Assembly: GCA_033980235.1 (NCBI GenBank)
Contig: CM067067.1
Location: 36,404,200-36,468,199, forward strand
Source of the DNA: Diadema setosum
Taxonomy: Eukaryota; Echinodermata; Echinoidea; Diadematoida; Diadematidae
Direction: 5' to 3'
Length of the DNA stretch: 64,000 nt
In this document: positions 2,377 through 62,375 of the stretch, piece after piece
Layout of the letters: each line of letters opens with the position of its first letter
How positions within the stretch are numbered: position 1 is the first letter of the stretch
Made by a program: the position numbers and the translations under genes
The notes under the pieces: generated by a model
What the model was told of the DNA's origin: nothing
The model's input: only the letters and a program-made list of their open reading frames with translations
The model's database searches: none

Positions 2377-2870
2377 TTTAAAGGAGACCTCCGGATGATT
2401 TTCAAATTTTTACATTTGAACATAAAATAATTAGTTATACCAGGGAGGTCACCTCCCTGGTTATACTGGGTACAGAGTTTCAGGATTTATAATGATTGGG
2501 ATGAAGAATAAGAAAGTTTTCGGAATTTCTAACAAATTGCAATGAACAAGGATGATGACATGGCAGCCTCACCATAAGAATGCATGAGATGTGGCTCAAG
2601 GAAGCAGCACAAAAGAAGAAGGCATGCATAGATTACACACAGGTGAGCTTGCAAGCATGCGATATTGTAATGGAATGACACTGCTACATTTCTGAGATAT
2701 GTGAGGCTCCTATGTCATCATCCTTGTTCAGTGTAATTTGTTTAAGGTTTTTGAAAGTACTGTTTCTCTGCTCAAGAACCACAATAAATTCTACAAATCT
2801 ATACATGAAGCTGTTGATTTATGTACTACATGATGTGAAATTATGAAAATCGTCCGGAATGCCCCTTTAA
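2377..2870 (-). mobile_element. Family-A TTAA MITE, copy 1
   Basis: 494-bp element with related inverted ends: TTTAAAGGAGACCTCCGGAT on the left, and on the right the complement of TTAAAGGGGCATTCCGGACG. Copies 2 and 3 (20908 and 33027) match along the length in the opposite orientation. TTAA at both ends suggests a TTAA target duplication (piggyBac- or Kolobok-like non-autonomous element). No coding capacity. A 19-bp palindrome with a 7-bp duplication has inserted at 2441. Confidence 0.85.
2434..2466. mobile_element. Micro-palindrome insertion A with 7-bp target duplication
   Basis: A 19-bp palindrome (2441-2459: CAGGGAGGT, C, ACCTCCCTG) lies between two exact copies of GTTATAC (2434-2440 and 2460-2466). 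It is inside family-A MITE copy 1. The copies at 20908 and 33027 have a single GTTATAC-type site, read as GTATAAC in their orientation, with no insert. Confidence 0.85.
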
Positions 2871-4385
2871 GATCATCACCACTGAGGATTAGAATTCATT
2901 GACAATATCTCATACCTGTATGATTTTCAATTATTTATCATCTTGAAAGTCTGAATGGCTGATACACGATTAGAATTAACCTTTCAAGAAGATAGTACGT
3001 CAGGAATTTGAGATTAAAATCTTAACATCATTGCATCTGTGTTTGTGAGCTAGTCAGCTGTCTATTTGTCTGTCTGTTGTTAAGTGTTTCATCGTAGAGT
3101 AGTCTACAAATTTCCTATGTGGTATTTCTGAAACCTGATTGACAGTAGGTTGTTCAATGAAATAGTCCACATCAATTTTGAAAGCATATCATGTCCATCA
3201 TGTTCGTCACATGGAACTGCATGTTCCACCCAGGATGTCTTACTAACTCTTTGTCACCCCCTAACTACCCCACATGATGTCAGGCTAAGGCAGTAGGACC
3301 TACTCTTAATGTTTAAACTCACGTACGTGTCTTGTTGACTCACTGCTGATGTGTTGTGTTGTGTTGTGTTTTGTTTTGTTTTGTTTTGTTTTCTGACAAT
3401 GACTGTTTGAGTTCAGTTTGAAATCGTTCGAAAAAAAAAAGTATTCATCACATTACACATCATCGGCTATGCATCAGATGAAAGGCCAAAATCGGCATTT
3501 GAAATGTTGCCAGATGCCCCGTCATTTGCATGCATTCAGTGAATCTTTACTGGACTATGACGTCATCATGTCGTCATCACCATTAACGTCCATGGGCTCT
3601 GGCATTGACGTTCATTCGTAGGAGGATTCTCTGGGCAAATAATAGATTATAAAACTATGACTAAGGTTATACCAAACAACTGTCGGGCTAGATTGAAACA
3701 GATAAATAAAAATCACGTCCGATAATCAATCATCTGGTTTTGGTTGCCAGTTGGTCAAACTGAATGTGGGGTGTCATGAAAGTTAAGCAAGAACGCTGTC
3801 GCTCTTCTTGTTCGGGCGCATCCTAATACAAAAGGGTACGTCCTACATTATCATGATCTCGAGGCCTAACGTGCGGTTCCATGTGATGAAAATATTAAAT
3901 GTGATGTTGAGGACATGACAATCATTATGATGACACACTTTCGGTATCTAACGACGACGAACGATGAGAACGAACTCTTTGAGGTAGGTCATTCAAGAGA
4001 AGCAGAAGGTTAGACAGCCCATGTTACAGATTTACTAGGCTACTACAGTATATCGCGAAGGAAGGAATTACGCGAAACAAGTGTCACACGTTTGGAAGGG
4101 ACTGAACCAGCAATACAAACTGCTAATATCCGTTCTCTCGCTTTTCGGGTTCCATGGCGTCTAGGACGATCCTCAGGCAGTTGTCCCCTAAATGGTGTGA
4201 GCAAGGAGGTCAATGGAAGTGGCTTGATGTGGAAGTCGAATGACTTCCTGGAAAGTATCTTGACATATTGTAAGGAAATTTCCATTACTCATGAAATTAA
4301 TTTTTTTTTTATCTATTAAAGTCAACAAGAAGAATCCATGCAATAATATGGTTTTTGATGTAGGTTTTTTTTTTCCTTTTTTTCG

Positions 4386-4418
<33 letters not shown>

Positions 4419-4830
4419 CACGGACTAGCATTTAGGAGAAAAAAAAACCTAGTTTTGTCTGCAAGGCATCGATGGACTGTTGAAGTGTGTCGAGGAATGC
4501 CACACAGATTGTTTCACCAAAGGCGGAAGCTATTGGTTGGAGGAGGAGGAACAAAGTGTGGTATAAAGTTGATGAACCTTTCGGCTCTTGAACTTTAAAT
4601 CCTGCATTTGAAACTTCCGATGCTTACATCCCTACATATAGACAAGATGTTGTACCCATGATGCCCATCCTGCCCCCACTGATGAAGCCGATGAAAGAAA
4701 ATGAATTTGATGCGGGATGTGACGGCGTTTTGTGCGACCTGTCTATTCGGGGTCATCCCAAGAGCTCAACACCCACGAGTCATACAGATAAATCCTGGAT
4801 AATGTATTGCATGTTGGTCTTGTTCACCTA
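2871..4830. other. Unique DNA
   Basis: GTGTT/TTTTG repeats at 3352-3391 and a poly(T) at 4386. No genes recognised. Confidence 0.4.
4386..4414. repeat. Poly(T) tract
   Basis: 29-bp T run preceded by other T-rich sequence from 4365. Confidence 0.95.
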
Positions 4831-4966
4831 GTGTGTATAGCTCGTGGTGTATAGCTCGTGGGCTGTAAGACTCTTGAGCTGTATGACTAGTGGGCTGTGC
4901 GACTTACTCATGGGGATTAAGTATGAATCGTGGGCTGTATATGCCACATGCGTGTCTAGCTCGTGA
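4831..4966. repeat. Degenerate minisatellite, about 15-16 bp unit
   Basis: Variants of GCTGTATGACTCGTGG are repeated roughly seven times (GTGTATAGCTCGTGG, TGTATAGCTCGTGGG, CTGTAAGACTCTTGAG, CTGTATGACTAGTGGG and later units), with one longer interruption. Confidence 0.7.
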
Positions 4967-5304
4967 CGGGCAGCACCAGTTCTACTAACTATATTGCTAT
5001 TGCCACTGTCATCATGGTTGTTGTTGCCGCAGAATGAGAGGAATGATGTACAGATTGGCATACCAGCAGACCAGACCACAACCTTGCTAAAACCTGTGAG
5101 GGATGGCCATATAGCCGCGGTGAGCCCAGAAGAGCAACCGGTGCTGCCTTGCAGCCGGCAGGGCGGCCAGTAGACCTGTTCAAGTTCCTGATGGATGGGC
5201 CGTGACTTAGAATCTCTGCATCGTGATGTTTAAAAGCAGGAAGAGGTTGAGTAGATGCCAAGCAGTTTGACCATTGGATCACCCACCTGCTACTTAATGA
5301 TAGT

Positions 5305-5356
5305 AATGATGATGATGATGATGATGATGATGATAATAATAATAATAATAATAATG

Positions 5357-5387
<31 letters not shown>

Positions 5388-5480
5388 TAATAATAATAAT
5401 AATAATAATAATGATAATAATAATAATAATAATAATAATAATATATAATAATAATAATAAAAATAATAATAATAATAATG

Positions 5481-5516
<36 letters not shown>

Positions 5517-5545
5517 GCAACAATAATAACAATAAAATAATAATG
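5305..5545. repeat. (ATG)n/(AAT)n compound microsatellite
   Basis: Starts as (GAT)n and continues as (AAT)n with periodic ATG interruptions for about 240 bp. All long frames here on both strands (poly-I/M/N/Y/L) are repeat translations. Confidence 0.98.
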
Positions 5546-6286
5546 ACAATGATCATCATTACAATCATCATCATTATTGATAAAGATAGCAATGGTTTAT
5601 CTAGAGTCTCAAAGGGTTTCACAATGTATGTACCAACACCTTGTCAGTATGCCGTCAGTCCAATCACCGGGTACATTTCAAACCTTAGACGTACCACCTT
5701 TTCTCCCCTCTCAAGCCACACCCAACCACGTTAAACGTCCAGCTTTCTTACCGAGTGCCCGTCTAACATACTGGACGCCAGGGTCTGTATACAGCCAGGA
5801 GCTTCGCAAATTTTCCTTCAATCAATTCAATTTAGTCAAATACTGTTCATTCCTGAAACAAAAGAGGGAATTACATATCTGGAGAATATGAATATTTGTC
5901 TCTTATTTGACGTATAACGCGAGTTCGTATGTGGGCGTTTATAAGGACAATTGGTTGGAGACAAAGAATAAACAACAAACATTACAGTCATGTATTAAGA
6001 ATGAATTTTCCTTTTTCACTCAGACACACACACACACGCACACATACATAAACATACGATTTTTTGTTTGTTTTATAGCGTCACTTTTGATCCCCCCCCC
6101 CCCAACAATTCAATAGTAACCACACATTCCATCAGTGGAAGATCGTTGTAAACTGGGCATTATTTGATAAGAAAATACCGGAAGTTGGCATTCCAGTATA
6201 AATGTTAAATTCAGAGAAGACCAGGCAGACCCGGTAAGACATGATTCCACGCGGTAAAGTTGCAGCAAAGGGGACTTACTCAACTC

Positions 6287-6337
6287 GTTCCCTTCTTCTT
6301 CTTCTTCTTCTTCTTCTTCGTTTTCCCCTCCTTCTTA

Positions 6338-6397
<60 letters not shown>
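6287..6397. repeat. (TTC)n followed by (TAC)n microsatellites
   Basis: (TTC)n at about 6290-6320 and (TAC)n at 6337-6397. The array resumes as (TAC)n at 6605-6632 after the fold-back element. Confidence 0.95.
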
Positions 6398-6604
6398 GGG
6401 TCTAGGGCAATTACCCCCTGGGCAATTACCCCGCACCCTTCCCCTGGCCCTAATCCTAATCCTAATCCTGAACCTAACCCTAACCCTAACCCAAACTCCT
6501 AACCCTAAACCTAACCCTAACCCTAATCTTTACTCTTACCTTACCACTAACCAGTATTTGGCCGGGGGGTAATTGCCCTCCGGGGGTAATTGCCCGGATA
6601 CGGC
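6398..6604. mobile_element. Fold-back element with internal telomere-like repeats
   Basis: The ends are inverted repeats built from GGGCAATTACCCC: CTAGGGCAATTACCCCCTGG with GGCAATTACCCC on the left, and GGGGTAATTGCCCTCCGG with GGGGTAATTGCCCGGATAC on the right. Between them (6446-6527) are CCTAAT and then CCTAAC units, the complement of TTAGGG. Both ends abut (TAC)n arrays (6337-6397 and 6605-6632). Confidence 0.7.
6446..6527 (-). repeat. Interstitial telomere-like (TTAGGG)n block
   Basis: About 80 bp of CCTAAC/CCTAAT units with a few substitutions. The block is enclosed by inverted repeats, so it is part of a dispersed element rather than a chromosome end. Confidence 0.85.
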
Positions 6605-6635
<31 letters not shown>

Positions 6636-7156
6636 ACTAAAATCGAGTCTTCTTTTTGTGATTTTTTCCCGAGTCTTTGCTATGTATTACACGACATAGT
6701 AACTATTCCTCCTTGCAATCTCCATTTAAAAGATACGATCACAATAGGTCATGGTTCCAGTTAGTAACGGACATTACGCGATCGAGATAAAGAAGTATTC
6801 TGGCATATTTTACACACTACGAGCCTGACTCATTCTATAAAGCTTGTTGCATGGGTAGGCGAATATATTGAGTTGTTTCTAAAAATTGAATATAAATCAT
6901 TTGGGTTACATGAGACAGCTGCAAAACGTATCCATTCTTCTGGAAAAGAAGTAGTCTTATAAAACAAAAAGAAAATGAACTGTAAGCTCAAGGATGACGA
7001 ATCATCATTTAGACGAACGAGACCTTGCCTATGACATGCGGATTTCTATGACAAACTTAAAATGTTCCTGAGAATTAAAATACCACGAAATGGCATCTAA
7101 ATAGAAACACATGGACAAACAAATCACACGTACATGTATACACACAAATATACACT

Positions 7157-7177
7157 GATAGATAGATAGATAACACT

Positions 7178-7235
<58 letters not shown>

Positions 7236-7249
7236 AAGATAGATAGATA
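7157..7249. repeat. (GATA)n microsatellite
   Basis: About 90 bp of GATA units with a few interruptions. Same motif as the large intronic array at 62007. Confidence 0.97.
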
Positions 7250-8015
7250 TGAAACAGTGTATTCAGCGCATAAAATCTATGCTGTACAATCAAATTTAAT
7301 TTTCCGCTCTCTGGTCGCGAAACACCATTCCAAGCTGACGCCTCATGTGTACCCCCTGACAGCCGGCATGGTCTAACCAAACCAAAGCCCCTTCTAGATA
7401 TACGGAATCCCAAGGGGGGCTCCTGGGCTACTAGCGCTCTCCTACAACAGACGGCGGACGGGTAACGAACGCGCGGGGAAGATGCGCTCTGCGTTCGCTC
7501 GACCGGAACAATTCTACACGAATATCAATTATACTGGGAACCTTTATCCTTGTCATCAACGACATCTAGAAAAACATTGGGCCAGACCGTAGGTCTTAAT
7601 TCTCCTACAGACATAGAGCTGATGCCAAGTCCTCCAATAAAATATATACAAAAAAAAGCGAGGAAAGAGGAATATATTGAGCAAAAGAAAACAGTTTGCA
7701 TATTCATGTATCAATTAGGAGTCGTCGACTGAATCCATGACTTACAGCGCGCAGACAATTAGCTCGAGAGGAGATATTTCGCATTTGGTAGACGGTTAAT
7801 TGGCAGAAGAAAAAAGAAAACCGGAGATATAGTTGGTGGATCGCAGCAGCGTGGCGAGTTGCTATGATACACATGGTTGATAATTCATTTTAGGGGCTTT
7901 GGAGATCACAGTGCTTGAGATGGTACACGTCGCTTTTTGTTGATGTTATATCGGCTAACTGCTTCAACCGATTTCCCCGCTGTTAATATGGCATCATTTG
8001 GAAATGTTAGTCTCA

Positions 8016-8027
8016 CGCACACACATG

Positions 8028-8074
<47 letters not shown>
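8016..8074. repeat. (CA)n microsatellite
   Basis: CA dinucleotide array with a GCGC interruption near its start. Confidence 0.97.
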
Positions 8075-8077
<3 letters not shown>

Positions 8078-8391
8078 CACCACATTTACACACACTCTCT
8101 GCCAGAAATGCCAGATAATACATGTAATATCGTAGAATTGCTTGCCTTGTACGCAAGATCTTTAGCCTGTCGAGTGGTCGTCCTTGTCAATGTCGTCTTT
8201 TTTTTTAATCAATAACTTTCTTGTGCTTCATCGAGAAACCGTCACAGCGAAAGTGCTTCACTGAGGTTAGTTTTGAGTTTTTTTTTCCTGCTTTTTGAGA
8301 TGGTATTTGAAACTTAACACTTACACAATACATGATGCGCAAACTGTCCCTTTTTAATGACCTACTACGTTGATAGCCAATTGAATTACCT

Positions 8392-8968
8392 TTAAAGGAC
8401 AAGTTCACCATAATTTACAAGTGGATTGAGTGAATGCAGCAATATTAGTAGAACACATCAGTGGAGGTTTGGGGAAAATCGGACAATCCATTCAAAAGAT
8501 TTGAATTTTTAAAGTATCTGCACAGTCACTGCTGGATGAGAAGACTTATACAGTGTAAGATGTCACATGCGTACAACGATATAAGGAAAATATAAAGAGA
8601 TTTTCACAAAATTTTACTTTTTGAAAACAGTGCACATTTTCTCGACTCGTCACTGACGTAAGTTAAAGGTAATATTATTCCCCCTTGCCTTCTGGAAGAG
8701 GGAAGTCAAGTGTTCTTTTATTAGGCGAGAAAAGTGAAACTATCATGAATTTCCTTTATATTTTTCTTTATATCGTTGTACACATGTGACATCACATGCT
8801 CTAGTAGTCTTCTCATCCAGCAGTGACGAAGCAGAAACTGCAAAAATTCATAACTTTTAAACGGATTGTCCGATTTTCCTCAAACCCTTGCTCAGTTGCT
8901 GATGTGTTCTATTGATATTGCTGCATTTGCTCAATCCAGATGTCTTTGAAGGTGAAATTGTCTTCTAG
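8392..8968. mobile_element. Family-C fold-back MITE
   Basis: About 577 bp. The left arm TTAAAGGACAAGTTCACCAT...GCAGCAATATTAGTAGAACAC is mirrored by the right arm GTGTTCTATTGATATTGCTG...AAGGTGAAATTGTCTTC. The arms also pair further in around ATGAGAAGACT / AGTCTTCTCAT and ACATGTGACATCACATG. The left end has TTAAAGG; the right end is eroded. No coding capacity. Confidence 0.8.
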
Positions 8969-9356
8969 TATGGCATATAATGCATTAAAGGCATTATAGA
9001 TGAAACAAAAACACAGCTTTAGTGCTTGAAAATAGTTCTAAGATGTATGTTAGGGATAGAACATTTAAATGCAAAACGTCAATCAGTATAGTCAATGCTA
9101 AGTATTGTTAAATATGCAAAATGTGAACAAAGGTTATAATGAAATTATTTCTTGAATAAACCGTCTACAGTTATGGCTTATTGAGATAAAATAGTGATAT
9201 CCTCTCACATTTTAGATTTTATTGCGACATTGTATGTGGTAGGATTTTTTTTTTTTGTGATACAACTGACCTAAAAAAAAAATGCATCAAATACGTGATA
9301 ACTCGAACGTTGTTGTTGTTGTTGTTTTTTAATCACTGCTCCCAATGGTAAATGAT

Positions 9357-9358
<2 letters not shown>

Positions 9359-9399
<41 letters not shown>
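9359..9399. repeat. Poly(T) tract of 41 bp
   Basis: Uninterrupted T run. On the minus strand it could be the A-tail of a retroposed sequence, but no adjoining element is recognised. Confidence 0.95.
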
Positions 9400-9402
<3 letters not shown>

Positions 9403-10620
9403 GAGCGTATTTCCATTCCTGGTGACGGCTCATCATTTTATTGTTGATAAGATACTCCTTTGATCTGATGCGTCTTATTCATCCATTCAATATCATATGA
9501 ATACTCGCATACAGTTTACATTATGTATGGCAAATCAAAACTCAGTTTTATGACATGTGTCTCATGAAAACTAATTCACAATTCATTCTCAGATGGAACG
9601 ACAGAATCATGATGGATTCGTCTTAATCAAACGGGGAGAATCACGTTTATTTATTAATCAATTTGATTTTCGAATTTCTGTCAATCTGAAGTACCACAGA
9701 TTGATTCACCGTTTGATACAACTCAAACACTGTAGTACATTATACCGTATATGTCCCCCCCCCCAAAAAAAAAAAAAAAAAAAAAAAGAAAGAAATACAA
9801 TGGGACCCTCCGCAATGATATCTTTCAAAATAGTGAATCAATCCAAATACATATTCAGGGTATGAAACTATAACTCATTGCCCACATCTTGCAAAAAACC
9901 CCATCACGATTTGCTTCAGTGGTCAAAGAGAAATGAGGAATTTTGTAGAGGATGTCAAGAATCTCTTCCCTCCAAGTTCTATTGTATTCACACACAAAAG
10001 AATCGAAGTGCTAAACTTGGAAGAATCAGACTCATGACATGCTTTACAATATTCCACATTTCTCTGTGATCGCTTAACCAAATTGAATAGGGTTTTCTGT
10101 AAAATAGAGCTAAGATGTTATATTTTAAGACCCTGAAATAGCATTTAGACAGTTTAATAACATTGGGTGTTAACAATGCGAAAATTTGGTTGTAATTTTT
10201 TGGGACGTACTGTATAACCGTTATATATCATGACCTTTTGTAATCAGCTGGTAATGTCAATTATATGATTAATACAAGAGTGAATCATGTCATTTGTCTG
10301 AGTCATTCTTTTTTTTGCATTCGTAAGAACAGAGAAAACAGACAGACAGACACCTTTCAGTTTAAAGACCGACCATTTCTAGCCCTATCAAACACACACA
10401 TACACCCACCTCAAACTACAAGTGTACAGATCATCAGTGTACGTAAAAACCACGCACAGCTTATCATCAGTATACCGTACGTTGATCAAAAACCGGTAAA
10501 AAAAAACACGTAAGAAAAACACATATAAAGAAAAAAACACCGTTAAAAAAAAAAACAAATGTATATACAAACTAACACATAAACACATAATACACATAAG
10601 CTATTATACAAACACATAAT

Positions 10621-10646
10621 ACACACACACACACACACACGCACAT

Positions 10647-10678
<32 letters not shown>
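10621..10678. repeat. (CA)n microsatellite
   Basis: CA array with GCACATACGC interruption. Related CA/ATAC sequence runs on from about 10585. Confidence 0.95.
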
Positions 10679-10680
<2 letters not shown>

Positions 10681-11228
10681 ACAAACACACACGTATACAT
10701 CAACACGTCTGCGATATCTCCCTGGAAGGGGACAGTTGATTGATCAGCAGAAGTAATTGGCGCCTTTTTTTTTTCCGCCACACCACCACAGACCCGATAT
10801 CCCTGCGCTTCGTCAAAATGTGCGATAGCTATCCAAACGGATCCTGCCCAAAGTTTGGCATTCGTCATCAATCAGGTTGCAGATTGCGATAAATCACGAC
10901 TGAGTCTTCGATAGTCCACTGACATAAATATAACTCCCGCACACTTTTATCCATGCTTCTTCCGTAATCATGACACGGAAGAGACAAGTCCGATATATGG
11001 TGTTCTCAATACAAGTCACTTGGCTGTAAATTCACGCCCCCAAAACTGACGGTGTTGATAAGGACTAGATAGTCTCCAAAAAAAAAAAACCCAAAAAACA
11101 TCGAATTGTCTTCCATTTTAGCCTACTATACGTTAACCTTCAAAAAATGCGAGCCTTGCTTTCAATAAGCCAAGCTGTTGGTTTATGGTCCAAAAGCACG
11201 GGTTAAATGATGTCAACTAACGGTATAA

Positions 11229-11237
11229 ACACACACA

Positions 11238-11317
<80 letters not shown>
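11229..11317. repeat. (CA)n microsatellite, about 89 bp
   Basis: The longest CA array in the window, with one G interruption. Confidence 0.97.
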
Positions 11318-11856
11318 TTACTAACTGATAGTGCCTACAAAATTGAACGCGAAAGCAGAAATGGCTAATTTCTTTTTGCTTGTTTTTCTGTAATCATATA
11401 GTTCTTGCTAACTCTTATTATTATACACCACTTGTATCTTCTTTTTCTTCCTTCTTTCTTTCTTTCTTCTCCTCCTCCTCCTTCTCCTTCATCTGTCTTC
11501 TTTGTCGTCATCTTCTTTTCGACACATGGCCGCGCCCGTTAGTTTTGGGGCCACCAAGGTCTCGTTTTGTAAATAAACTGCCCGGTGAGATGTTTCAAAC
11601 TCGAGGCACCGACTGGCCCACGGAGGTCGTCGAGCCCCATCACTCATACTCGTCGATGACGTCTGTACAGACCTTCTTTTGATCTCACGGAGCCCGCCAT
11701 CCCACCAATCTCTACCCCTTCCCTCTCGCCCCCCCCCGTCTCTCCCCCCCCCCCCCTCCCTCCCACCAAACGTCTCTCTCTATCTCTTTATCATGCTATC
11801 TTTCTTTTCCCTCCGCATTTTGTTTTTATTTTTTTTTTTTGTGTGTGTAGGTATTG

Positions 11857-12250
11857 TTAAAGGGTGTGTACAGTTCTGGTCGAGGTGAGGATTTAGCTTT
11901 TAACGTTTTGCGAGATATTCAGAAACCACTCTATGAGATGTCAAAGAGCATGCAGTAACTGTTCTAAGGGGTATCAAAAGTTTATTCGATGGAAATCCGT
12001 TTTGAAATGGATGAGATATCCAAAAACAAGGTGAAACAAAGAGATCCTAATAAAGTTGTCGCATGTCGCCTTTTATTATTAGCATTTTTTTTTATATCTC
12101 AGCCATTTGAAAACCAATTTTCATCAAACAAACGTTGAATCCTTAGAATTACATGCTCTTTCATATTTCATAAGAGGATTTTCATTATCTCACTTTGGAA
12201 TGTTCAAGACATGAATCCCCACCTCAACCAGTACTGCATAGTCCCTTTAA
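11857..12250. mobile_element. Family-B TTAA MITE, copy 1
   Basis: 394 bp with TTAA at both ends and inverted termini: TTAAAGGGTGTGTACAGTTC on the left and the complement of TTAAAGGGACTATGCAGTAC on the right. Both halves contain ATATCTCAGCCATTT or its complement, so the whole element is a loose fold-back. Other copies are at 13852, 20823 and 27332. No protein coded. Confidence 0.85.
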
Positions 12251-12915
12251 CACATGGGTTATGCTATTAATGGTCGTAGGTGGCGCCATGACAACATTCG
12301 CCATCGTGGATGGGAGGGCAAACACATTTCCTGACCGACAGAACAGACGTCGCACCAGCAACTCTCTCCCGGCGATCGCAGTGGTTGTCGGGTTGTCATG
12401 TGATTCCGTATAAGATCGCCAGGCATCGTGTGATGCCGTCACGCCGGCGATATGACAGGCACTTTAAGCTTCGAGGCTCGGCAGCGAGAAATAAGAAAAA
12501 TTACAAACAAACCACAAAGACGCTCACTAATTCATGAGAGTATCGGCGCAAATTCGAGCGACAAAGTAGTATAACACGTCGGGGTTGTGCAATATTTACA
12601 TTGCAGTGGCTTGGCGCGACTGTCGCGTCGAAGGCTTCCTATCATAGAGCTTTTGTTGCCGATAATGTCAAAGCAGCATGAACGCCATTGTTGAGGGAAA
12701 CTTTATGTTTTCTCTTACAAGAAGGGTGCCGCAAAAATACACACGAAAAAAAAATGCGTGATACTGTATTTTTAGAACTTTCACCGCCTAAGAGAATTGG
12801 GAACAGGGAATAAAAACACCGATAAGAGTTTGTAGAGAGATTATGAAAAAAAAAAATCAACCAGTAGAATCATAAAAAAGAGCTAACATTAAAATTTTTC
12901 CGATATGCTTGTATA
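12251..12915. other. GC-richer unique DNA
   Basis: 12251-12640 is CpG-richer than its surroundings and includes ATGCTATTAATGGTCGTAGG next to GTGGCGCCATGAC. A candidate conserved non-coding element, but nothing here proves it. Confidence 0.3.
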
Positions 12916-13012
12916 GATCAATTAATGAAGAGCTTGCTTCCAAAAGGAGCTAAATCTATTGAAAAATGATGGATTTATCGCCTTTTGGAAGCAAGTTCTC
13001 CAAATATTGATC
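12916..13012. repeat. 97-bp hairpin (inverted repeat)
   Basis: The arms GATCAATTAATGAAGAGCTT ... and their complement at the right share a perfect 17-bp core, CTTGCTTCCAAAAGG with flanking pairs (12931-12947 with 12981-12997). Outer pairing is looser (GATCAAT with ATTGATC). The loop is about 13 nt. It could be a short fold-back element or a transcribed hairpin. Confidence 0.75.
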
Positions 13013-13851
13013 AGCATGTGCAATCATTCGGAGGGAGGCAATTGGTAAAAATCATACCACATGCACTTAACTTTGTTCTGCTTCTTTTAGCATTTTGATA
13101 ACTGGGCGTTTGTATAACCTTGACTTCTTGTTTTCTTCATGAGAAGAGAAAAAAAGAGTTAAATCAAACAAGAAAAGTTATAGATAAAACAAGTGAGAGC
13201 GGGAGAGAAGGTATAACATGGATGCCAGGAGAAAGCCATGAAGGGGATCAGCATCTTTAAACTGAAGTGTTACTTTTTTTTCATATGTTCTCCATTCGCA
13301 ATCCATGCAAGAGAAAAATGGTCAGAGCACTATATTATTAGGCCTCACCGGTATCTCTCTATTCTGGAAGTAAGTTATCCATCTTAACTTATCCGTCTTA
13401 TGTGGCGATCCGAAGAGCCTCCTTTCATCCAACGCAGATGGTTACTGTTCCACTTTCCTTTGTGAAATTTGGAGCGCCTCAAACGGTGATATCCGCGCTA
13501 ATCTCGGCGACACGTGTCGATGACTTAACGAACGGGAAGAGCCCCCCGTGCTGTGTGGCGACTGTAGGCACCGCGGTGTGTGTTGTTCCCTCTACATTGA
13601 TTGTTTGGACTCACAACGTGCAATGCAAACACGTTATTGGAGTTGTCCATATTTCCATCTGGCTCTGTGTATGTATTTGAAATAAATGCACATAAACATG
13701 TACACACAACCGTATTCAACCATGATGATGATACATAATCAAAATGCGTAAGTAATTTGCCCCTAGTCAACCGTTGCGGTGATACATCTCTGAGTAGTGA
13801 AGTATTCCAGTCTATTACGTCAGAATTTCTCTCCACAAGGACAATTCATCT

Positions 13852-14247
13852 TTAAAGGGACTGTATATACAGTACTGGTTGAGGTGGGGATTCATGTTTT
13901 GAACATTCCATAGTGAAATAATGAGAAACTTCTTATGAACTATGAAAGAACATGTGATTTTAAGAAGGATTCAATGTTTATTTGATGAAAATCGGTTTTC
14001 AAATGGCTGAGATATAAAAAAAAAATAATAATAATAAAAGGCGACAGGCCACGCCTTTTATTAGGATCTCTTGTTTGACCTTGTTTCTGGATATCTCAGC
14101 CATTTCAAAACCGCTTTTCACCAAATAAACTTTTGATACCCCTCAGAATTGCATGCTCTCTGACATCTCATAGAGTGGTTTCTGAATATCTCACAAAACG
14201 TTAAAAGCTAAATCCTCACCTCGACCAGAACTGTACACACCCTTTAA
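13852..14247. mobile_element. Family-B TTAA MITE, copy 2
   Basis: 396 bp, opposite orientation to the 11857 copy. It runs from TTAAAGGGACTGTATATACA to CTGTACACACCCTTTAA with TTAA at each end. The centre has an A-rich tract and a small AAT repeat followed by AGGCGACAGGCC. Confidence 0.85.
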
Positions 14248-14300
14248 TAGCCGATATTCTCATTCATAAACTTCTTCTCAGGTCAGATATATCTCACATT

Positions 14301-14302
<2 letters not shown>

Positions 14303-14333
<31 letters not shown>
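14303..14333. repeat. (CT)n microsatellite
   Basis: Pure CT run, 56 bp beyond family-B copy 2. Confidence 0.95.
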
Positions 14334-14337
<4 letters not shown>

Positions 14338-14478
14338 GTGTGTGTGACAATTTTACAAATGAGATGTTGGGTGTTTATATCATAAGTTATAACTATAGTA
14401 TATAAAAAATTATAATTTATAAGTTATAATTGTTTATTATGTTGTAATTTTTACATCTATTTAAAAAAAAGTTGCTCA

Positions 14479-14512
14479 CATTCAACAGGGAGGTGAACCT
14501 CCCTGCATTCAA
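14479..14512. mobile_element. Micro-palindrome insertion B with 7-bp target duplication
   Basis: A 20-bp palindrome (14486-14505: CAGGGAGGT, GA, ACCTCCCTG) between exact copies of CATTCAA (14479-14485 and 14506-14512). Same arms as insertions A and C, different centre and different target. Confidence 0.85.
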
Positions 14513-14569
14513 GAAGGATATCAGCTTTTCAAATTCATGAAATTCTTTCGTCGAGATGTCTTCATTGCA

Positions 14570-14657
14570 ACTGACTGACAAATTGCCCTACATCGACGTA
14601 TATAAGCACTGAATTGATCAGTGTTTTACGTTGATGCAGGGCAATTTGTCAATCAGT
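14570..14657. repeat. 88-bp hairpin, precursor-microRNA-sized
   Basis: Left arm ACTGACTGACAAATTGCCCT then ACATCGACGTA. Right arm TACGTTGATGCAGGGCAATT then TGTCAATCAGT. The apex CACTGAATTGATCAGTG also pairs. The nearly continuous stem with a few mismatches is miRNA-precursor-like in size, but a fold-back element is equally possible. It lies 65 bp from micro-palindrome B. Confidence 0.7.
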
Positions 14658-14715
14658 AGTGATATTAGTTTTGTTGTTTGGGTGAGTACAACAGTTCCGG
14701 TATAAAATATTGTGA

Positions 14716-14740
14716 TTTTATTTTATTTTATTTTATTTTA
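14716..14740. repeat. (TTTTA)n pentamer repeat
   Basis: Five tandem TTTTA units. Confidence 0.9.
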
Positions 14741-16374
14741 CTGGTGTTTATTTTTCCTCTAATTAATGCTTTTACATATTATAGTTATGATTTCTACATA
14801 CCGGAACAACAGTAACGACAAGACATAGATTTTGGAAAAGACATGATATGGCTCCCAAACGCAATTGTTTAGTCTTCTGAATTAACAGCCGAGAATAAGA
14901 GGTTCTTCACGTCATGTTCAGGTATCGTGCTCAATGACAATTTGGTTCTGTAGGTATTTCGTTCAAGGTTAAAGACGAATTGAAACCAAACACATATCTA
15001 AACAACTGCTCTTGCATTTTAGCTTTTTCCCTAATATCGGCCGGTTATTCAAAATATTGTAAACGTAAGTCCCCTATCAGTTATCCCATTATTCATTCAT
15101 TCAACAATGTCTTGCTAATCCGTACGTCCTTTTGGCTTTGAGTCGGCGGCGTGATGATTAATGCTGGGTCGAGAGATCGTATATCTTACACCTTGCTCTC
15201 TTGTTGTCGTTTTTCTTCTCATTAGTCGTTAAAAAGCGGGCATTGATATATATCTTTCGCAAAGTATTCGGCTGCATATATTTCGTTATGAAGACTGGAA
15301 CCAATCACATTTCGTGCTGTCAACCTGTCGCGATTCTCGGACACTTTGACGCGCGCGGTTCACCATGTCATCGTTCCTCGGTTGATCTTCAACGTCGTAG
15401 ACTTTCAGCGTGGCGTTTCTAAGTTTACTTGCAACAGTTTGGCCGACGTGAGGTTACACAATCGTCGAGAAGTTAGTTTGTATTGATAAAGTAATTAATC
15501 CATCACGTCTTGTCCAGAAGTCAGGGAAATGTGTAATCGGAAGATAAGAACTCGATCGTCTATGACTTGTGACTACTTAAGCTGTCATGATTCAGGCAAG
15601 GAAGTAAACTTTCTGAGTGGATAATATAATCGTGACTTTGAACAAGCCTATCAAACTTCTCCGTAGTTATCTCTCTCATACCAGAGTTTGAAAAAAAAAA
15701 ATAATAAAATCGAATATTAAATGAAGTAACCCTTGCCCTCGAATGGTACTGTTAGGCAAAACTCAAGTGGTGAAGAGTGCATGCATGCATGCATCCTATT
15801 TGCAACTGAAGTTGACATATATCAACTTCAACAGATATACATGTATATCCGTTAACAAAGCGAATGAAAAAGTAGTTAGCACAAATCACTTCGATGTGCT
15901 TAGTTTTCACCTTTTATTGAGTTTTGAACAAGTCCACAAGAACTAATCCACACACACTGTATCACCTTTTACATTATCTACAATATTGATGGCCAGTTTG
16001 AATTCTAACAATCAGATACACATACATTGTTTTTCTTTTTTCACTGGGGTAATTGATGATCTCTTTCCAGAGCAGTTGAATTTGGGAATAATCAGTGTGA
16101 ACGTATCTCACAGACAAAAAAGAAAAGAAAAAACAAAACAAAACAAGAAAATCAACAAAATGTTTAAATGACAATTTGCCCAAAATATTTATGTGAATTA
16201 AAGGAATTAAAAACATTAGAAACGCATAAGAAAGGACTGAGGAATGTCGAACCACCCACATGTGGTTTGATATTTGTACCGTCGTGTCTGGATGAGATTA
16301 CAGCAAATAATGACGTCGCAGAAGTAGAACAAAGTAGAGAAAATATAGGGAGAATTTGCTATATTTATATAGCA
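14741..16374. other. Unique DNA
   Basis: Includes a (GCAT)n run at 15778-15793 and a mildly GC-rich part at 15300-15420. No genes recognised. Confidence 0.4.
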
Positions 16375-16500
16375 TTTTATTCATTACATTTAATTTAATC
16401 TTATTTCATTTTCTACAAAAGTGTACTATATGACATTTGCATATAAACAAAATAGAGTACAATGTGACTTTTGCATATTCAAATAAGATTTAAATGCAGA
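16375..16500 (-). mobile_element. Possible LINE 3' tail fragment
   Basis: The minus strand gives GCAAATGTCATATAGTACAC, then AGAAAATGAAATAAGATTAA and a decayed AATG tail. It resembles the 39180-39249 tail but is diverged. Confidence 0.35.
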
Positions 16501-16635
16501 TATTTTTTATACAATAAAACAAAGGTAGAACTCTTCATTTACTTCTTTCAGATAGGGAAATGATGCTACTTTACGTTTTCACAATTTCTCAACTTTATTA
16601 CAGATATTGGATCTTCCTCAAACTTATGTATGTGC

Positions 16636-16638
<3 letters not shown>

Positions 16639-16681
<43 letters not shown>
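16639..16681. repeat. (AT)n microsatellite
   Basis: Pure AT run. Other AT arrays are listed separately. Confidence 0.97.
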
Positions 16682-16682
<1 letters not shown>

Positions 16683-17595
16683 TGTAATGAATAATGTTGT
16701 AAATGATATTAATTGGGGTTTTTTTTAATAGTGATGAATGATTTGAAATTTGTAAATACTGTGTTTTTTAATGAAATTTGTATTGTAGTATTGTGTCTTT
16801 GTGAGCAAATGTTGCAATTCAGCCTTTTGGCTGCGGGAATATTTTTATCTAAGAAACCATACCATACCAAAAAGTTCCCTTTAATCGTTGTATTGCCTCG
16901 TTGAGATATGCGGTTTAACGTGTTTTAATACTTCCCAGTGAATTTGTACTGTACACTCGTTCAACAGACCAGTATCACTCAGAGGTAGAACCAGGGACCA
17001 TCAAAGTTAGACAGTCCTGCCATTGACAGCATTATTGTGTGACTATTTAACAATCAAACAATATTATGTTAAACTAAATTATTATCATTAGTTAAACAAA
17101 GTATTATTTATCTATTAAACAATATTTCTGGCTTTACTACTCCTCAATATAGCAATTTATAAGTACACATAACAGAATTATGTAATAGTTATTTCATTTA
17201 AGAATGTTTTCCACCATCGCACTGATATCTATTTGGTATTTCTTCCTATTTCTTCCTACATTGCCTATTATTGCAAGGCATTTTAGCTATCTGTTTACTT
17301 AATCCTTGCTGTTTCAAAGATTTGATTTGATTGATTTGATTTGATTTGGTTTGTTCTCTCTATGTTATTGCTTTACATCAGTTTTCAGCCATATCATCAA
17401 GCATATTTATGCATATATTGGTGCTGTACAAAAGTATGGTTATTTTGTACAGTTTCATCAATTTTCTTTACACAATTGGTCTACATCAATAACATAATCA
17501 CTTGCGATATATATGTAAATATTATGTATGGTATACTTGGAAAGTGTGTACAACAATATTGATAATGACGATACACGATATGTCAAATATCAGAT

Positions 17596-17692
17596 GTAAA
17601 TAAAGACAACTGGATTATTAAAAGAGCAGTAATTCACTACATCATGTAGTGAATTACTGCTCTTTTCTAAATAATCCAATTGTCTTTATTTT
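17596..17692. repeat. 97-bp near-perfect palindrome
   Basis: The arms AAATAAAGACAACTGGATTA ... ACTACAT pair with ATGTAGT ... TAATCCAATTGTCTTTATTT around a single central C at 17643. Only a couple of mismatches and a one-base bulge are seen. With almost no loop it would extrude as a cruciform. Likely a tiny fold-back element. Confidence 0.8.
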
Positions 17693-18076
17693 TGTTAGAT
17701 TTACATGCATTGATTTTTTAAATTAAATTGAAAAAGACGTTTAGTCTTTATTAAAGATTTAACTGACAACTAAAGGTCAAATTGCACAGATGTATACATC
17801 ATACGAAAGTATTCATTGACATAAAGTATAATTTCATACACGTAGATTGATATATAATCATTAACACATTCCAAATTACATACAAATGATACCAACAATA
17901 TAACTTCAAAAATAATTGATCTTGTTATTGCAATTTTCACCCTGTGCATGTTAATCATCCTGTGAATCCATTTCCTATTAAAGGCGTTTTCTTAGTGTAA
18001 TATACATTTTTATGCTTGTTATCATTGTAAATCAGACTCAATTCAGTCATTGGGATTCGATTGGTTATAAACAGAA

Positions 18077-18120
18077 ACCATTCCATTGCATTCCATTCCA
18101 CTCCATTCCATTCCATTCCA
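18077..18120. repeat. (ATTCC)n pentamer repeat
   Basis: About eight CATTC/ATTCC units with single substitutions, shortly before a CA array at 18150-18188. Confidence 0.9.
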
Positions 18121-18147
18121 TGGGGTTTTCTGAACCAATCGACACTC

Positions 18148-18149
<2 letters not shown>

Positions 18150-18188
<39 letters not shown>
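18150..18188. repeat. (CA)n microsatellite
   Basis: Pure CA array. Confidence 0.96.
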
Positions 18189-18191
<3 letters not shown>

Positions 18192-20822
18192 GGTTATTAG
18201 TCGATGAATTCATTTGGTGTTAATTTCATTAGCATACCGCCATTGATTCAATTGCCTGTCTATCGCCATTTTATTTAGAAATGATAGTAAAGAGCAGAAA
18301 AGAAATGAAATGTGACAGATACAAAACTGGGAGGTGGCGTATGTGTGTGCGTGTGATTGTGTTTTAAAGGTTACCTTGATGGAAATTGTCATTTAAAATA
18401 TAATGTACAATTGTGAAACCTTTATTTGTAAGGTAATTACCTCGAGATGCCCTTGAGAAAATGTCTCTTCGCGTGACGTTGACCTTCAGCCCACTGATAT
18501 TTGACTTTCATCAACTCACATTAGGACACCTGTATCCTAAAACTTGCCCTGGGCATTGCGTGGATTTTCTCGCCGCCACGGTAGAAAGACCGCCACGTGT
18601 TCAACCGTTGGTGTTGGCAGTGTGTTGGTGGCTCTGATAGGGGCGCACCACTAACACAACTATCGCACCACTAAATGAAGTTCACCGTACGGTCAGGTGG
18701 GGTACAATCATGGCGTAGCGGGTGCGTGTGCGCAGACGATAGCGTTCCACGTTCCGCCACGAAGAGGAACTCGTCTTTGTCCGTCGGTTGCCTTTAAACT
18801 CCTAGCTGTTTATTTGTTTGTGACAAAGTGATAAAACTGACGTCAACAAAGATACTGAAGATAAAGAAAAAATAAGTTACTCTGATCCATGCGTATCCAA
18901 AATCACACGAGTGGCAACCCCGTCGCATGTAGTGAAACAGATGTTTATGACAAGCAAATGAAAACTATTGTGTGTATGAAGAAGAATCCATGTAACAAAG
19001 CCTTTATAATGCCTGGTAATTTTTATCTTTGTTTGTTTGGGGATTTATATGTATATATAAAAGTTTTTGTATATGAATATTTACTTGAATATCATTAACC
19101 AGTGATGTGATATTTGAATTTAAACGTAATAGAAATTTGCCGAAAACAAATTAGACATAATACCATTAGTATTAGTTGAGGTGAGGACATTAACAGACAC
19201 AAAAACGTACACAAAAAGAAAGTAGGCCTAAATAAAATGAATAGATGATTAGATGAACTGAACTAACACAAAATGATAACGTTATTTCCTAGCTGTTTCC
19301 GAAGTTAATTGTTCCACACCTTGCGTGATATTTATAACCGTATGATCAGGCAGTATCATAACTATGGGTTTTATCATAGTTTTCCAGTCACCATTAATTT
19401 ATGTTGATATCGCTTAATACTTAAAGTATTTGGTGTAGATACAGGTGTAAAGATATCGACTTATACGGTCTTAAATCGATAAATCAAGTCGACTCCTACA
19501 CTCACACAAGATATCACACACACACGCACGCGGGTGCGTGTGCTTGCGCACGCATATATATGCACACATTACAAACAAGAAAAACCACCCTGCATTTTAT
19601 AAAGAAAAAAAATACATAAACACACACACACACATTCTAACAAGTAGGTGTGTAAATGTGACATGAATTTGAAATCAATAGGTGTGTCCACTTCAAACTC
19701 ACATGAATTAACACACAACACAATCCACGCGCCTTCGCGCGTGCGCGCGCACACACACACATACACACACAGCAACAGAGTGAGAAAGAAATTGATGGGC
19801 GCGTGAATTTTTCGCGAATGAAATTCCCATTCTAAAAGATATTCGTTTACGTCTGAAGCATCACTATAATTTGTTCTGGATAATAAATCCAAAGCGTGTA
19901 GACAGTGAGGGATGTGTGGGGGATGGGGGAAATGACATATTAAATTCGCGTTTAGCATGATGAGGGCTGAACGCGCAGAGCCAGTCAACACAAATTGACA
20001 AATAACCGATGCAGAGCGCTATCCGATCATCTGTTCAATTCATTTCTGTAACACTTCCATTGTCAAGCCGAGTTTATCACCCGAAGCCAAATGATGAGGC
20101 ACTGAAAAGGAAAGAATTTATCTTTCTCTTTTTGTGTGTGTGTTTCTTTTCCCCCCAAATAAACTAACTTGCAGATTTTAATGCGCGACTCACCAAATAG
20201 TGCCCCTCAATTGTGCAAGGGGTAAAGTTAAATACATAAATTGAAGGTGGGAGGGCGGGGGGGGGGGAGAGAAAACAACAATATTTGGAAATGGTTTGAA
20301 TACTATCATCGTGTTAGATGAAAAGAAACGTCCCTGTTGAAAGTCTTTGTTCACATTCAGCGTAATTTCTTTACGTGTTGCCCTTTCGTCAACCTCAACG
20401 CATGCCAAAAAAAACCGAAACAAACAAACAAACCAAAAAAAAAACAACTACTTTTCAACAATACTGTTTGAATGTTGAAAATTGTTGAAAATGTCTTTGA
20501 AAAGCTTTAATTTTCCCTGCACATTGTCTTACTTGCTCTGAGAAACAGTAGCAGGATTATAATTCTTTTTCTTCTTTTTTATATAATCCTTCTCAAATCC
20601 TTGTAGAACATACAAACAAACAAACAAACCTCATGTGTGGTATGATTATCATACATTTCAATCATTTTAGAATGGGGCATTCAACAGAATTTTGAGAAAA
20701 GCTGTTTTGCTTGTTTGACCATTATTGATGTCTTTATATGCTCTTCTCTGCCTGTACCTATTTCCCCCTTTGTTTTTTTTTTTCGCTTTATTTCCTTTTT
20801 GTCTCCTCTTTTACTTCATTCC
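18189..20822. other. Unique DNA with a CpG-rich patch
   Basis: 18540-18790 is GC-rich and has GCACCACTAA twice (18646 and 18665). Short alternating purine/pyrimidine runs occur near 19520-19555 and 19730-19760. Confidence 0.4.
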
Positions 20823-21549
20823 TTAAAGGATGGTATAGTATTGCTTGAGATGAGGTTTTTCAACTCCTAACTTTTTGCGAGAAACTTAGAAATCACTTTA
20901 TGAAATGTTAAAGGGGCATTCCGGACGATTTTCATAATTTCACATCATGTAGTACATAAATCAACAGCTTCATGTATAGATTTGTAGAATTTATTGTGGT
21001 TCTTGAGCAGAGAAACAGTACTTTCAAAAACCTTAAACAAATTACACTGAACAAAGATGATGACATAGGAGCCTCACATTCCATTACAATACCGCATGCT
21101 TTCAAGCTCACCTGTGTGTAATCTATGCATGCCTTCTTCTTTTGAGCTGCTTCCTTGAGCCACATCTCATGCATTCTTATGGTGAGGCTGCCATGTCATC
21201 ATCCTTGTTCATTGCAATTTGTTATAAACTTCGAAAACATTCTTATTTTTCATCCCAATCATCATAAATCCTGAAACTCTGTACCCAGTATAACTAATTT
21301 ATATATACGTTCAAATGTAAAAATTTGAAAATCTCCTATAAAGAGCATACAGAGTTTATCAAAGAAGAATTCAGAGTTTATTTGGTGAAAATCGGTTTTG
21401 AAATGGCAAAGATATCCTAAAAACAGAGTAAAACAAAGCAATCATAATGAAAGATGGGTCAGGCCTTTTTATCATAATCGCTTTGTTTTATATATCTCAG
21501 TCATTTCACAACCAAATTTCATACACTTCATCTTTTTACCCGTTATGTT
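20823..21549. mobile_element. Family-B MITE, copy 3, split by a family-A insertion
   Basis: The left part (20823-20907, TTAAAGGATGGTATAGTATT) and the right part (21342-about 21549, with AAATCGGTTTTGAAATGGC and TATATCTCAGTCATTTCA) match the other family-B copies. The family-A element separates them. The far end is lost or diverged beyond about 21549. Confidence 0.75.
20908..21341 (+). mobile_element. Family-A TTAA MITE, copy 2, nested in a family-B MITE
   Basis: Starts TTAAAGGGGCATTCCGGACG and matches copies 1 and 3. It carries the undisrupted site ACCCAGTATAACTAAT that is split by the micro-palindrome in copy 1. The right end is eroded (ATCTCCTATAAAG). It sits inside the family-B element that begins at 20823. 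The family-B copy at 11857 has TGTCAAAGAGCATGC at the same point, so the target was probably TTAAAGAGCAT. Confidence 0.85.
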
Positions 21550-23061
21550 ACATAATCATAATTTGTGTCGTCACTGCCTTTACCATTCGTAATGTCTTTG
21601 CCCACATCACATCTCTCGCTTTATCCCACCGTTTGTTTCTCTGCGTTTCCCTTTCTTCCTCTTCTCTCCCTCTCGATACATTATTTACCACATGTTTTGC
21701 AACTCTTTGATACAGTTTTCACCCTTTCTGTCTATCGTAGCTTCCCACCAGTGGCGTGAAATTCGTACTACCGAAATCGTAGCCTCGGGGTATAAGGTAC
21801 CCACTCCTCGGCATTCGTGTGATGGGCGAATCAAGTTTGACTATACGGGTCTATTCAAGTATTCCTCTCTCTCTCTCTCCCTATATACCCGCTCTTTCTG
21901 CTTTTCCCGAGGAAATCGCGATCCGACATCAATGGTGGGGGATCTCTGTTCCCTTGGGGGACAAGAGCCGGGCTCATCATCTCATTCTCTTGCAGCCGTC
22001 TGTTCTGCGGCGGCTATCTCCCGATGGAACAGAAAAGGGTCAATTCTCGCAGCTGGCGAAAAAACGCGTATCTTTCTTCGCATTCGAGTCAGTATTCCTT
22101 TGTGTACTTCAGTTTTTGTTTTTATTTGTACTTTGACTCTTTCCTATCTCTCCCTCTCTTTCTATATTTTTTTTTTCTAAGACATATACAAAAAAAAAAA
22201 TGAAATGCCTGGAAGGTATGTGTTCTTTGAATAAACGTTGCGTTTGCGAATGAATTAAGATATGTTTTAATTATTTTGGTGAAAAGGATGGGTTGTTTAC
22301 ATTATTTTCTCTAACATTACAGTCTATTTTTAAATAGAAGTTATGGCATTTCTCTTTTACTTTAGATGGTGGGTCGCTGCAATCGACAAATACTGTTTGC
22401 CATCACCGAGTTGTTTTGGCGCCGCGACTACCCCTATCATGTATCTTGAGCATAAGTCCTCAGACCTGAGTTATCTAAGATTATATTCTTGTTCTATTCT
22501 TGTTATGTTCTTGTACCATTGATCGTTGTTAAATTCGGAAGTCCGTTCTGGGACTGCGTCGTTCTTAGAGGACGTATCGTCTAAATTTTGTAACCCTCGA
22601 GGAAATATAGTTTTACCCTATGCAAGGTGGTATCTAAATAGACGCACCAATCCCACTGTTTTATTGAACCGCAGTACACGTAACGTCGGTTTGGTGTCTA
22701 ATCAATTGTTTTTGAGTTAGAATGACTGAACTCTTATATTCCTCAAACACCATCAGGCTCCGTAATGCAGTATTCTTGATAATAAGCTTAACATTATGTT
22801 TGTATCATTATTATGATAATGCTGACAGTGGCAAACTATAATTATGTATGCGTGCATCTACGCACAATTGTCTGTTTGTACATTGTACATAATACGTAAG
22901 CTTGAATGATTGTACTTGTATAACAGTATAATGTATTTTTGTTGTTTACCAGTGAAAAAACAAGTTTCTGTTTCCATAATTAAACAAACAATAGATATTC
23001 ATATCATATCATATCGTATCAGTTACTTGTACAATTTCCACAGCACATTCAAATTGTCTGT

Positions 23062-23099
23062 AATGAATCAGGGAGGTGTTCCCACCTCCCTGAATGAAT
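23062..23099. mobile_element. Micro-palindrome insertion C with 7-bp target duplication
   Basis: A 24-bp palindrome (23069-23092: CAGGGAGGT, GTTCCC, ACCTCCCTG) between exact copies of AATGAAT (23062-23068 and 23093-23099). Same 9-bp arms as insertions A and B. Confidence 0.85.
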
Positions 23100-32200: not shown

Positions 32201-33026
32201 CAGCCATTTTCAAATACAGACGCAAGATCTTTTTCTTTCTTTCTTTTTTTCAGTATATTGTCATCATGTGTTCTTTTACCGCTATTAGAAGCTGATAGCA
32301 ATCTCGATAACCGTGTTAGGCTCTACACATGTCAAAGCTGGTGAAAAATTCCCCTCAAATTGATAATTCTCGGTTGACAGATTTTTAGGCAACTGTTCCT
32401 TTTTGAAGGCACACTCGAATAATCTCTAGAATACAGACACCTTTACTGAAAAGTGAAACAAAGTTCATGTTAAAAAGATATGATAAATGAAGGTTTTAAC
32501 ATGGAATTAGTCATATCATTGATCAGGTCAGTCATTGTTTTAAAGGAGTCCTGTTATCGATTTATTATGCCTAACTATCTAAACAAAATTCGCTTATTGT
32601 ATCATTATGTGACACATCTGAGCTAAACGTTAGGAGTCTCTAGTATAATTCAGTAAAACTAAAAAAAAAGCACCTACAAACAAACAAATAAACACCAATG
32701 AAATGCATACTGTAGACGCTGCAACAGTACAATTGAGTGCCAAGTACTGCTGTTGTTTTGTCTTCTGTTTTCTTAAACCTCTGCCGTGCAAGGTGAAGTG
32801 AAGGTGGTGTCCAGAAAGGGCAGTCGCAAAGATGTTAGTGTAGCGGAAAATTTGTGCTGGCGAATTTCGGGCAGATGATACTAATTACGTCCTCCTTCTG
32901 ACTCGATCGAGTCAGGCATTGCCTGCTACTCAACCATGAGGGCGTGGCATTATCGCTATCACAGAAGCTAGCGCTTTGGCAGAAAGCAGTTGCCTGGGCA
33001 ACATGTCATCCGACAACGTATTAAAC

Positions 33027-33451
33027 TTAAAGGGGCATTCCGGACGAATTTCATAATTTCACATCATGTAGTACATAAATCGACAGTTCCATGTCTAGAT
33101 TTGCTGAATTTATTGCGGTCCTTGAGCAGAGAAACTGATACTTTCAATGATGATGATGATGATGATGATGACATAGGAGGCTCACATATTTCAGAAATAC
33201 TAGCAGTGTAAATCCACCACAGCACTGTTTGCTTAACAAGTTCACCTGCGTATAATCTATGCATGCCTTATTCTTTTATTTTGCTTCCTTGAACCCCAAC
33301 TCATACATTCTTATGGTGAGGCTGTCATGTCATCCTTGCTCATTGCAATATGTTATAAACTTTGAAAAACATTCTTATTCCCTCACCTCAATCACCATAA
33401 ATTCTGAAATTCTGTATCCAGTATAACTATTCATCCGGAGGTCTCGTTTAA
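33027..33451 (+). mobile_element. Family-A TTAA MITE, copy 3
   Basis: 425 bp, from TTAAAGGGGCATTCCGGACG to ATCCGGAGGTCTCGTTTAA, with TTAA at both ends (33027-33030 and 33448-33451). It is shorter than copy 1 because part of the first half is replaced by a short (GAT)n tract at 33147-33170. It also keeps the uninterrupted CCAGTATAACTAT site that is split in copy 1. Confidence 0.85.
33147..33170. repeat. (GAT)n tract inside family-A MITE copy 3
   Basis: Eight GAT units. The other family-A copies have only GATGATGAC here, so the array grew inside the element. Confidence 0.9.

Positions 33452-61666: not shown

Positions 61667-62375
<709 letters not shown>

Follow-up and report, generated by a model that had tools for sequence, protein, structure and literature searches.

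What leaves palindromes of about 20 bp, each with the same arms and each enclosed by a different but perfect direct repeat? The question is raised by a 64,000-bp stretch of the genome of Diadema setosum (GenBank assembly GCA_033980235.1, contig CM067067.1, positions 36,404,200 to 36,468,199; referred to below as the window), in which such a palindrome occurs at three places (sites 1, 2 and 3; Table 1). We propose that each of them is the scar of one insertion and one excision, made by members of a single cut-and-paste transposon family whose transposase would most likely belong to the P superfamily (P, 1360, Galileo, THAP9). We put the probability of this proposal at about three in four.

Three palindromes with common arms

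The coordinates and letters given for the three palindromes in the original prediction were correct, and the identity of the arms, the differences between the centres and the exact but dissimilar 7-bp repeats held at all three sites. The arms, CAGGGAGGT and ACCTCCCTG, are 9 bp long and alike in all six cases (no change over 54 bases), whereas the centres (C, GA and GTTCCC at sites 1, 2 and 3, respectively) differ both in length and in letters. The flanking direct repeats are exactly 7 bp long at each site, the next bases outward being mismatched on both sides.

All six occurrences of the exact CAGGGAGGT in the 64 kb (both strands) lie within the three sites. The pattern CAGGGAGGT-N0-20-ACCTCCCTG is matched three times in the window; in 100 dinucleotide-preserving shuffles the mean was 0.00 and the largest number 0. 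Given the base composition of the window, one exact 7-bp flank match is expected by chance with a probability of 9.7e-5, which by arithmetic gives about 1e-12 for three independent matches. A scan that was blind to the arm sequence, and that asked for inverted arms of 6 bp or longer with at most about 80 bp between them together with a direct repeat of 6-11 bp, returned six hits: the three sites, two hits within one GTTAT tandem array (at about 48.25 kb) and one at 54313-54345, the last being at the level of the controls (0-1 hits per simulated sequence, n=10). As a further control, the palindrome was found 12 times in 11 stretches of IMG/VR, with a matching 7-bp flank in none of the 12 cases. 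Even the best of these flanks mismatch at four of seven positions, and three of the stretches share one 23-bp palindrome together with its flanks. DNA folding predicted a stable hairpin at all three sites; this follows from their being palindromic and says nothing about function.

Table 1. Coordinates, within the window, of the three palindromes (putative scars), of the repeats that flank them and of the dispersed repeat at site 1
Feature	Positions	Strand	Basis
Site 1, left 7-bp target duplication GTTATAC	2434..2440		sequence
Site 1, putative 19-bp scar CAGGGAGGT-C-ACCTCCCTG	2441..2459		sequence + gapped pattern
Site 1, right GTTATAC copy; single copy in both paralogues	2460..2466		sequence + BLAST
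Site 2, left 7-bp putative target duplication CATTCAA	14479..14485		sequence
Site 2, putative 20-bp scar CAGGGAGGT-GA-ACCTCCCTG	14486..14505		sequence + gapped pattern
Site 2, right CATTCAA copy	14506..14512		sequence
Site 3, left 7-bp putative target duplication AATGAAT	23062..23068		sequence
Site 3, putative 24-bp scar CAGGGAGGT-GTTCCC-ACCTCCCTG; 10-bp arm pairing possible, leaving TTCC	23069..23092		sequence, folding
Site 3, right AATGAAT copy	23093..23099		sequence
Dispersed repeat interrupted at site 1; Kolobok-like by TTAA edges only; edges approximate	2376..2873	+	BLAST
Empty-site paralogue with a single GTTATAC; alignment extends to either side of the junction	20905..21333	-	BLAST
Second paralogue, one GTTATAC; BLAST alignment starts only 2 bases left of it	33026..33429	-	BLAST

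Site 1 is a 26-bp insertion

The sequence that surrounds site 1 is a dispersed repeat, some 400-500 bp in length, of which the window contains two other copies. Because both of these paralogues hold a single GTTATAC, and one of them aligns straight across the junction, site 1 is a true 26-bp insertion, in which 19 bp and a 7-bp duplication were added to pre-existing sequence. When the 19 bp and one repeat were removed from the query, BLAST spanned the junction to 21333-20905 (453 columns, 91.4%); when they were kept, the main alignment did not start until 2460, and 28 bp to the left of it were matched as a separate piece. The alignment with the copy at 33429-33026 (80.9%) starts 2 bases to the left of its GTTATAC; farther left the copy has a gap, followed by the left end of the repeat. 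This copy backs the single GTTATAC, but its coverage of the left flank is poorer.

For sites 2 and 3 the window contains no empty-site paralogue, and no BLAST match other than self-matches crosses either junction. At these two sites we infer insertion from the perfect 7-bp repeats.

The dispersed repeat has features of its own. Its three copies, at 2376-2873 (+), 20905-21333 (-) and 33026-33450 (-), have similar inverted ends and TTAA edges, the inverted ends of the first being TTTAAAGGAGACCTCCGGATGATTTTC ... AAAATCGTCCGGAATGCCCCTTTAA. The rule described for Kolobok elements is TTAA (PMC9587614), and the repeat is consistent with a Kolobok-like non-autonomous element.

Probable excision scars and the family that may be behind them

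The combination of the same arms with unrelated centres speaks for three excision scars of independent origin and against the copying of a single mini-palindrome. Divergence of one ancestral palindrome by mutation is unlikely as well, since 54 arm bases have remained unchanged while every centre differs. Constant arms with variable centres are what results when two like ends are joined by end joining, independently each time. The original prediction had left two readings side by side, a tiny mobile palindrome and the footprints of a transposon which is cut well inside its own ends. The second is supported by the empty-site paralogues at site 1, by the same arms around different centres and by the like architecture of P-element junctions; the first is disfavoured.

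The proposed course of events is as follows. An element with a terminal inverted repeat starting CAGGGAGGT, probably CAGGGAGGTG, would insert and duplicate 7 bp of its target. Its transposase would then cut the two strands at different places, one at the edge of the element and one some 10 nt or more within it, and both donor ends would retain about 10 nt of the element as single-stranded tails. Filling in of these tails and end joining, with slight trimming or a filler of at most about 4 nt, would leave constant arms, different centres and intact target duplications, as the three centres suggest.

Five candidate end sequences were fitted to the three cores and scored by the length of filler that they require at sites 1, 2 and 3. 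With CAGGGAGGTG the fillers are 0, 1 and 4 nt, each core being read as left end + filler + right end (9+0+10, 10+1+9 and 10+4+10). Fillers of 0, 1 and 0 nt are obtained with both CAGGGAGGTGGGAAC and CAGGGAGGTGTTCCC, and of 0, 0 and 4 nt with CAGGGAGGTGAA, while CAGGGAGGTTTC gives a poorer fit (1, 1 and 6 nt). The first four sequences fit about equally, so the cores do not fix the end past CAGGGAGGT(G) or the depth of the cut (10 nt or deeper). If the palindromes are scars, 9-10 nt or more of the presumed end would have been retained on each side at all three sites.

Scars of this form have been described for the Drosophila P element, whose transposase cleaves with a stagger of 17 nt (PMC7776569) and whose donor ends carry 3' tails of 17 nt that are not complementary (PMC2895639). 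Among the P{wa} junctions tabulated from Rad51-mutant flies, both 8-bp duplications were kept in 63 of 66 isolates, and in 36 of the 66 a minimum of 9 nt was in addition left at both ends, the cores measuring 25-44 bp (PMC2895639, Table 1). Fewer than 9 nt were left at one or both ends in 27 of the 63 isolates with both duplications, and the flank was partly lost in three of the 66 (PMC2895639). The centres of these junctions are microhomology joins, blunt joins or insertions (PMC2895639, Table 1). As tabulated, the P{wa} scars have the layout that we propose for the palindromes studied here: a target duplication, arms which are the element's own ends, a short variable centre and the second duplication. 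They differ in that P has an 8-bp duplication and 17-nt tails, against 7 bp here, and in an unrelated end sequence. The earlier statement that no described family has this form was too strong, given that P-element scars take it.

The length of the duplications is as expected of the P superfamily, in which 7 or 8 bp is usual: exactly 7 bp at all three sites here, and modal values of 7 bp for 1360 (274 of 279 sites) and 8 bp for P in one survey, which gave 8 bp also for hobo, of the hAT superfamily (PMC3276498). Galileo is described as having mostly 7-bp duplications (PMC2775673, PMC4168063), with three copies that have 8 bp (PMC4168063). The target tendency given for the P group is ANAGT in the 5' half and ACTNT in the 3' half (PMC3276498). 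The empty site 1, A-GTTATAC-T, fits the AGT...ACT core, which occurs at 18 of 63,992 positions in the window. To judge from their Drosophila descriptions, 1360/Hoppel and Galileo resemble the present case in their 7-bp duplications and in their motifs, GTTNAAC and GTANTAC, which are similar to the GTTATAC of site 1 but are unmatched at sites 2 and 3; no excision scars of either element were noted in these descriptions. Outside insects, the zebrafish element Pdre2/THAP9 is a member of the P superfamily with a short terminal repeat (13 bp), differing from the present case in its 8-bp duplication and its end, CATACCTGTCAAC; where zebrafish THAP9 acted upon P elements of Drosophila, in S2 cells, it gave larger flanking deletions. 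Among echinoderms, a sea cucumber has been reported in a preprint to carry three genes that are THAP9-like and contain a P-type transposase domain (PMC13228809). By analogy with these systems, the scars were probably made by a transposase of the P superfamily, a type that combines a THAP domain with an RNase H-like domain and a GTP-binding domain and that may be encoded by the element or by an autonomous partner. The CAGGGAGGT ends start with CA, as P-superfamily terminal repeats do, which is a weak criterion. Such ends are common to many superfamilies.

Several observations weigh against the proposal. The palindromes, of 19, 20 and 24 bp, are shorter than all 36 comparable P cores as tabulated (25-44 bp), and at least 9 nt are present at both ends in three of three cases, against the 27 of 63 P isolates with fewer at some end; the cut or the trimming would consequently have to differ from that of P. 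The P-group target motif fits only one of the three sites, being absent from sites 2 and 3, and past the leading CA the ends of Pdre2 and of P (CATGATGAAATAACATA) share little with CAGGGAGGTG. Nor was a parent element found in the window. It was searched for with CAGGGAGGT-like 9-mers (at most two mismatches each) in pairs up to 20 kb apart with matching 7-bp flanks; the window holds 49 such 9-mers on the plus strand and 42 on the minus strand, and among the resulting 470 end pairs only the three scars have matching flanks. A transposase gene was not detected either, as Pfam, applied to 13 of the 18 open reading frames (ORFs) of at least 120 residues, gave a single match, to a homeodomain.

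A general scan of the window for 14-bp inverted ends (at most two mismatches, up to 8 kb apart, simple sequence filtered out) accompanied by exact 7-bp repeats yielded six hits, none starting with CAGGG. A scan for trimmed or one-sided scars yielded five, three of which are the sites themselves; the others (6406-6427 and 59938-59978) are at the level of the controls, which gave 0-3 hits per simulated sequence (n=20). Two guessed end sequences were matched in 15 and 34 stretches of IMG/VR, which yielded nothing useful. Among the titles listed in literature searches, none described a transposon family with CAGGGAGGT or CAGGGAGGTG ends, which is no claim that none is in print. KolobokP, for which excisions have been reported and which occurs in echinoderms, was considered and rejected, its duplications being given as 3-5 bp (PMC9587614).

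Among the other explanations, the one that survives best, although we consider it unlikely, is that the scars were left by a different superfamily with CAGGG-type ends, such as hAT, or by an unplaced superfamily that cuts about 10 nt inside its ends; no transposase was found among the ORFs scanned, which leaves room for this. It is also true that hAT ends often start with CAGGG. In hAT excision, however, the hairpins form on the flanking DNA, so that palindromes and other changes are derived from the flank and the element ends are not left behind. All three sites here have intact 7-bp flanks and the same arms, which argues against hAT and against the hairpin-repair idea of the original prediction in its usual hAT form. 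Moreover, the duplication of hobo in the survey cited was 8 bp at 1,196 of 1,198 sites (PMC3276498), against 7 bp at all three sites here.

A somewhat less probable source of the palindromes is aborted gap repair from the sister copy (synthesis-dependent strand annealing), in which only the outermost end bases were re-copied, so that each palindrome would be an extreme internal deletion of a P-like element. Incomplete synthesis followed by end joining has been described for P elements (PMC2895639), and the extra nucleotides at site 3 could come from such synthesis. Scattered lengths would be expected from this process; the 9-10 nt per side (at most 15) found at three sites would fit a fixed cut better, on a sample of three.

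We are at least as doubtful of an ultra-short mobile palindrome of 19-24 bp, itself moved as a unit by some transposase. The differing exact target duplications and the empty-site paralogue of site 1 do indicate that something with these ends was inserted, and a longer sequence having such ends together with 7-bp flanks was not found in the window. Copies of one unit would, however, have a common centre, and the internal sequence expected to be shared by copies of an ultra-short miniature inverted-repeat transposable element was not found: the centres are all different around unchanged arms. We are not aware of a transposase that can pair ends separated by about 20 bp. That the sites arose by chance, or are artefacts of the assembly or the library, is scarcely credible in view of the three pattern matches against 0.00 expected, the empty-site paralogues and the lack of 7-bp repeats at all 12 unrelated palindromes.

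If the palindromes are indeed excision scars, such scars alone reveal the end sequence, the target duplication and the approximate cut position of a transposon, even one that has vanished. The pattern to look for (a 7-bp repeat, CAGGGAGGT, 0-10 nt, ACCTCCCTG and the same repeat) is searchable in any echinoderm genome. Scars of this kind would provide a tally of past excisions and a record of end-joining outcomes in a natural germ line, and they would test whether the long internal cut of Drosophila P is a feature of the whole superfamily.

With three scars and no element found in 64 kb, one may go further and speculate about a P-like transposase of an echinoderm whose stagger is shorter (about 10 nt) and which leaves scars with intact targets at such a rate that they far outnumber the elements; we think this very improbable. 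If the density in the window held genome-wide, there would by arithmetic be about 47 scars per megabase. Such a surplus, if true, would suggest very efficient excision rather than ordinary transposition, perhaps the developmentally programmed removal of elements by a domesticated transposase of the THAP9 type.

Genomic surroundings

The homeodomain match mentioned above is an exon at 61667-62125 (-), by which the window resembles animal DNA. Among the protein matches listed (120 of 5,158), the highest identity (96%, with 76% of the query covered) was to Hox5-type proteins of the starfish Acanthaster planci and Asterias amurensis. Judging from this similarity, the sequence is a probable echinoderm Hox region. 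Directly upstream of the Hox5-type exon is a long AGAT microsatellite (62008-62370; 61667-62370 overall), which is why the frame, taken from stop to stop, starts in the repeat and continues into the homeobox.

A second dispersed family is represented at 11857-12250, 13852-14247 and 27332-27724, with a partial copy at 21353-21534. Its copies also match their own reverse complement, and those at 11857 and 14247 show 98% complementarity over their outer 98 bp. The window also contains an interstitial array of the telomere-type repeat CCCTAA (6448-6526) and a direct tandem duplication of 111 bp (36924-37153), whose units are 94-95% identical; the latter keeps the frame of a minus-strand ORF of 146 residues with no Pfam match. 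Another ORF, at 38120-38653 (+), likewise gave no Pfam match; from its appearance by eye, we take it to resemble the C-terminal part of a non-LTR retrotransposon reverse transcriptase.

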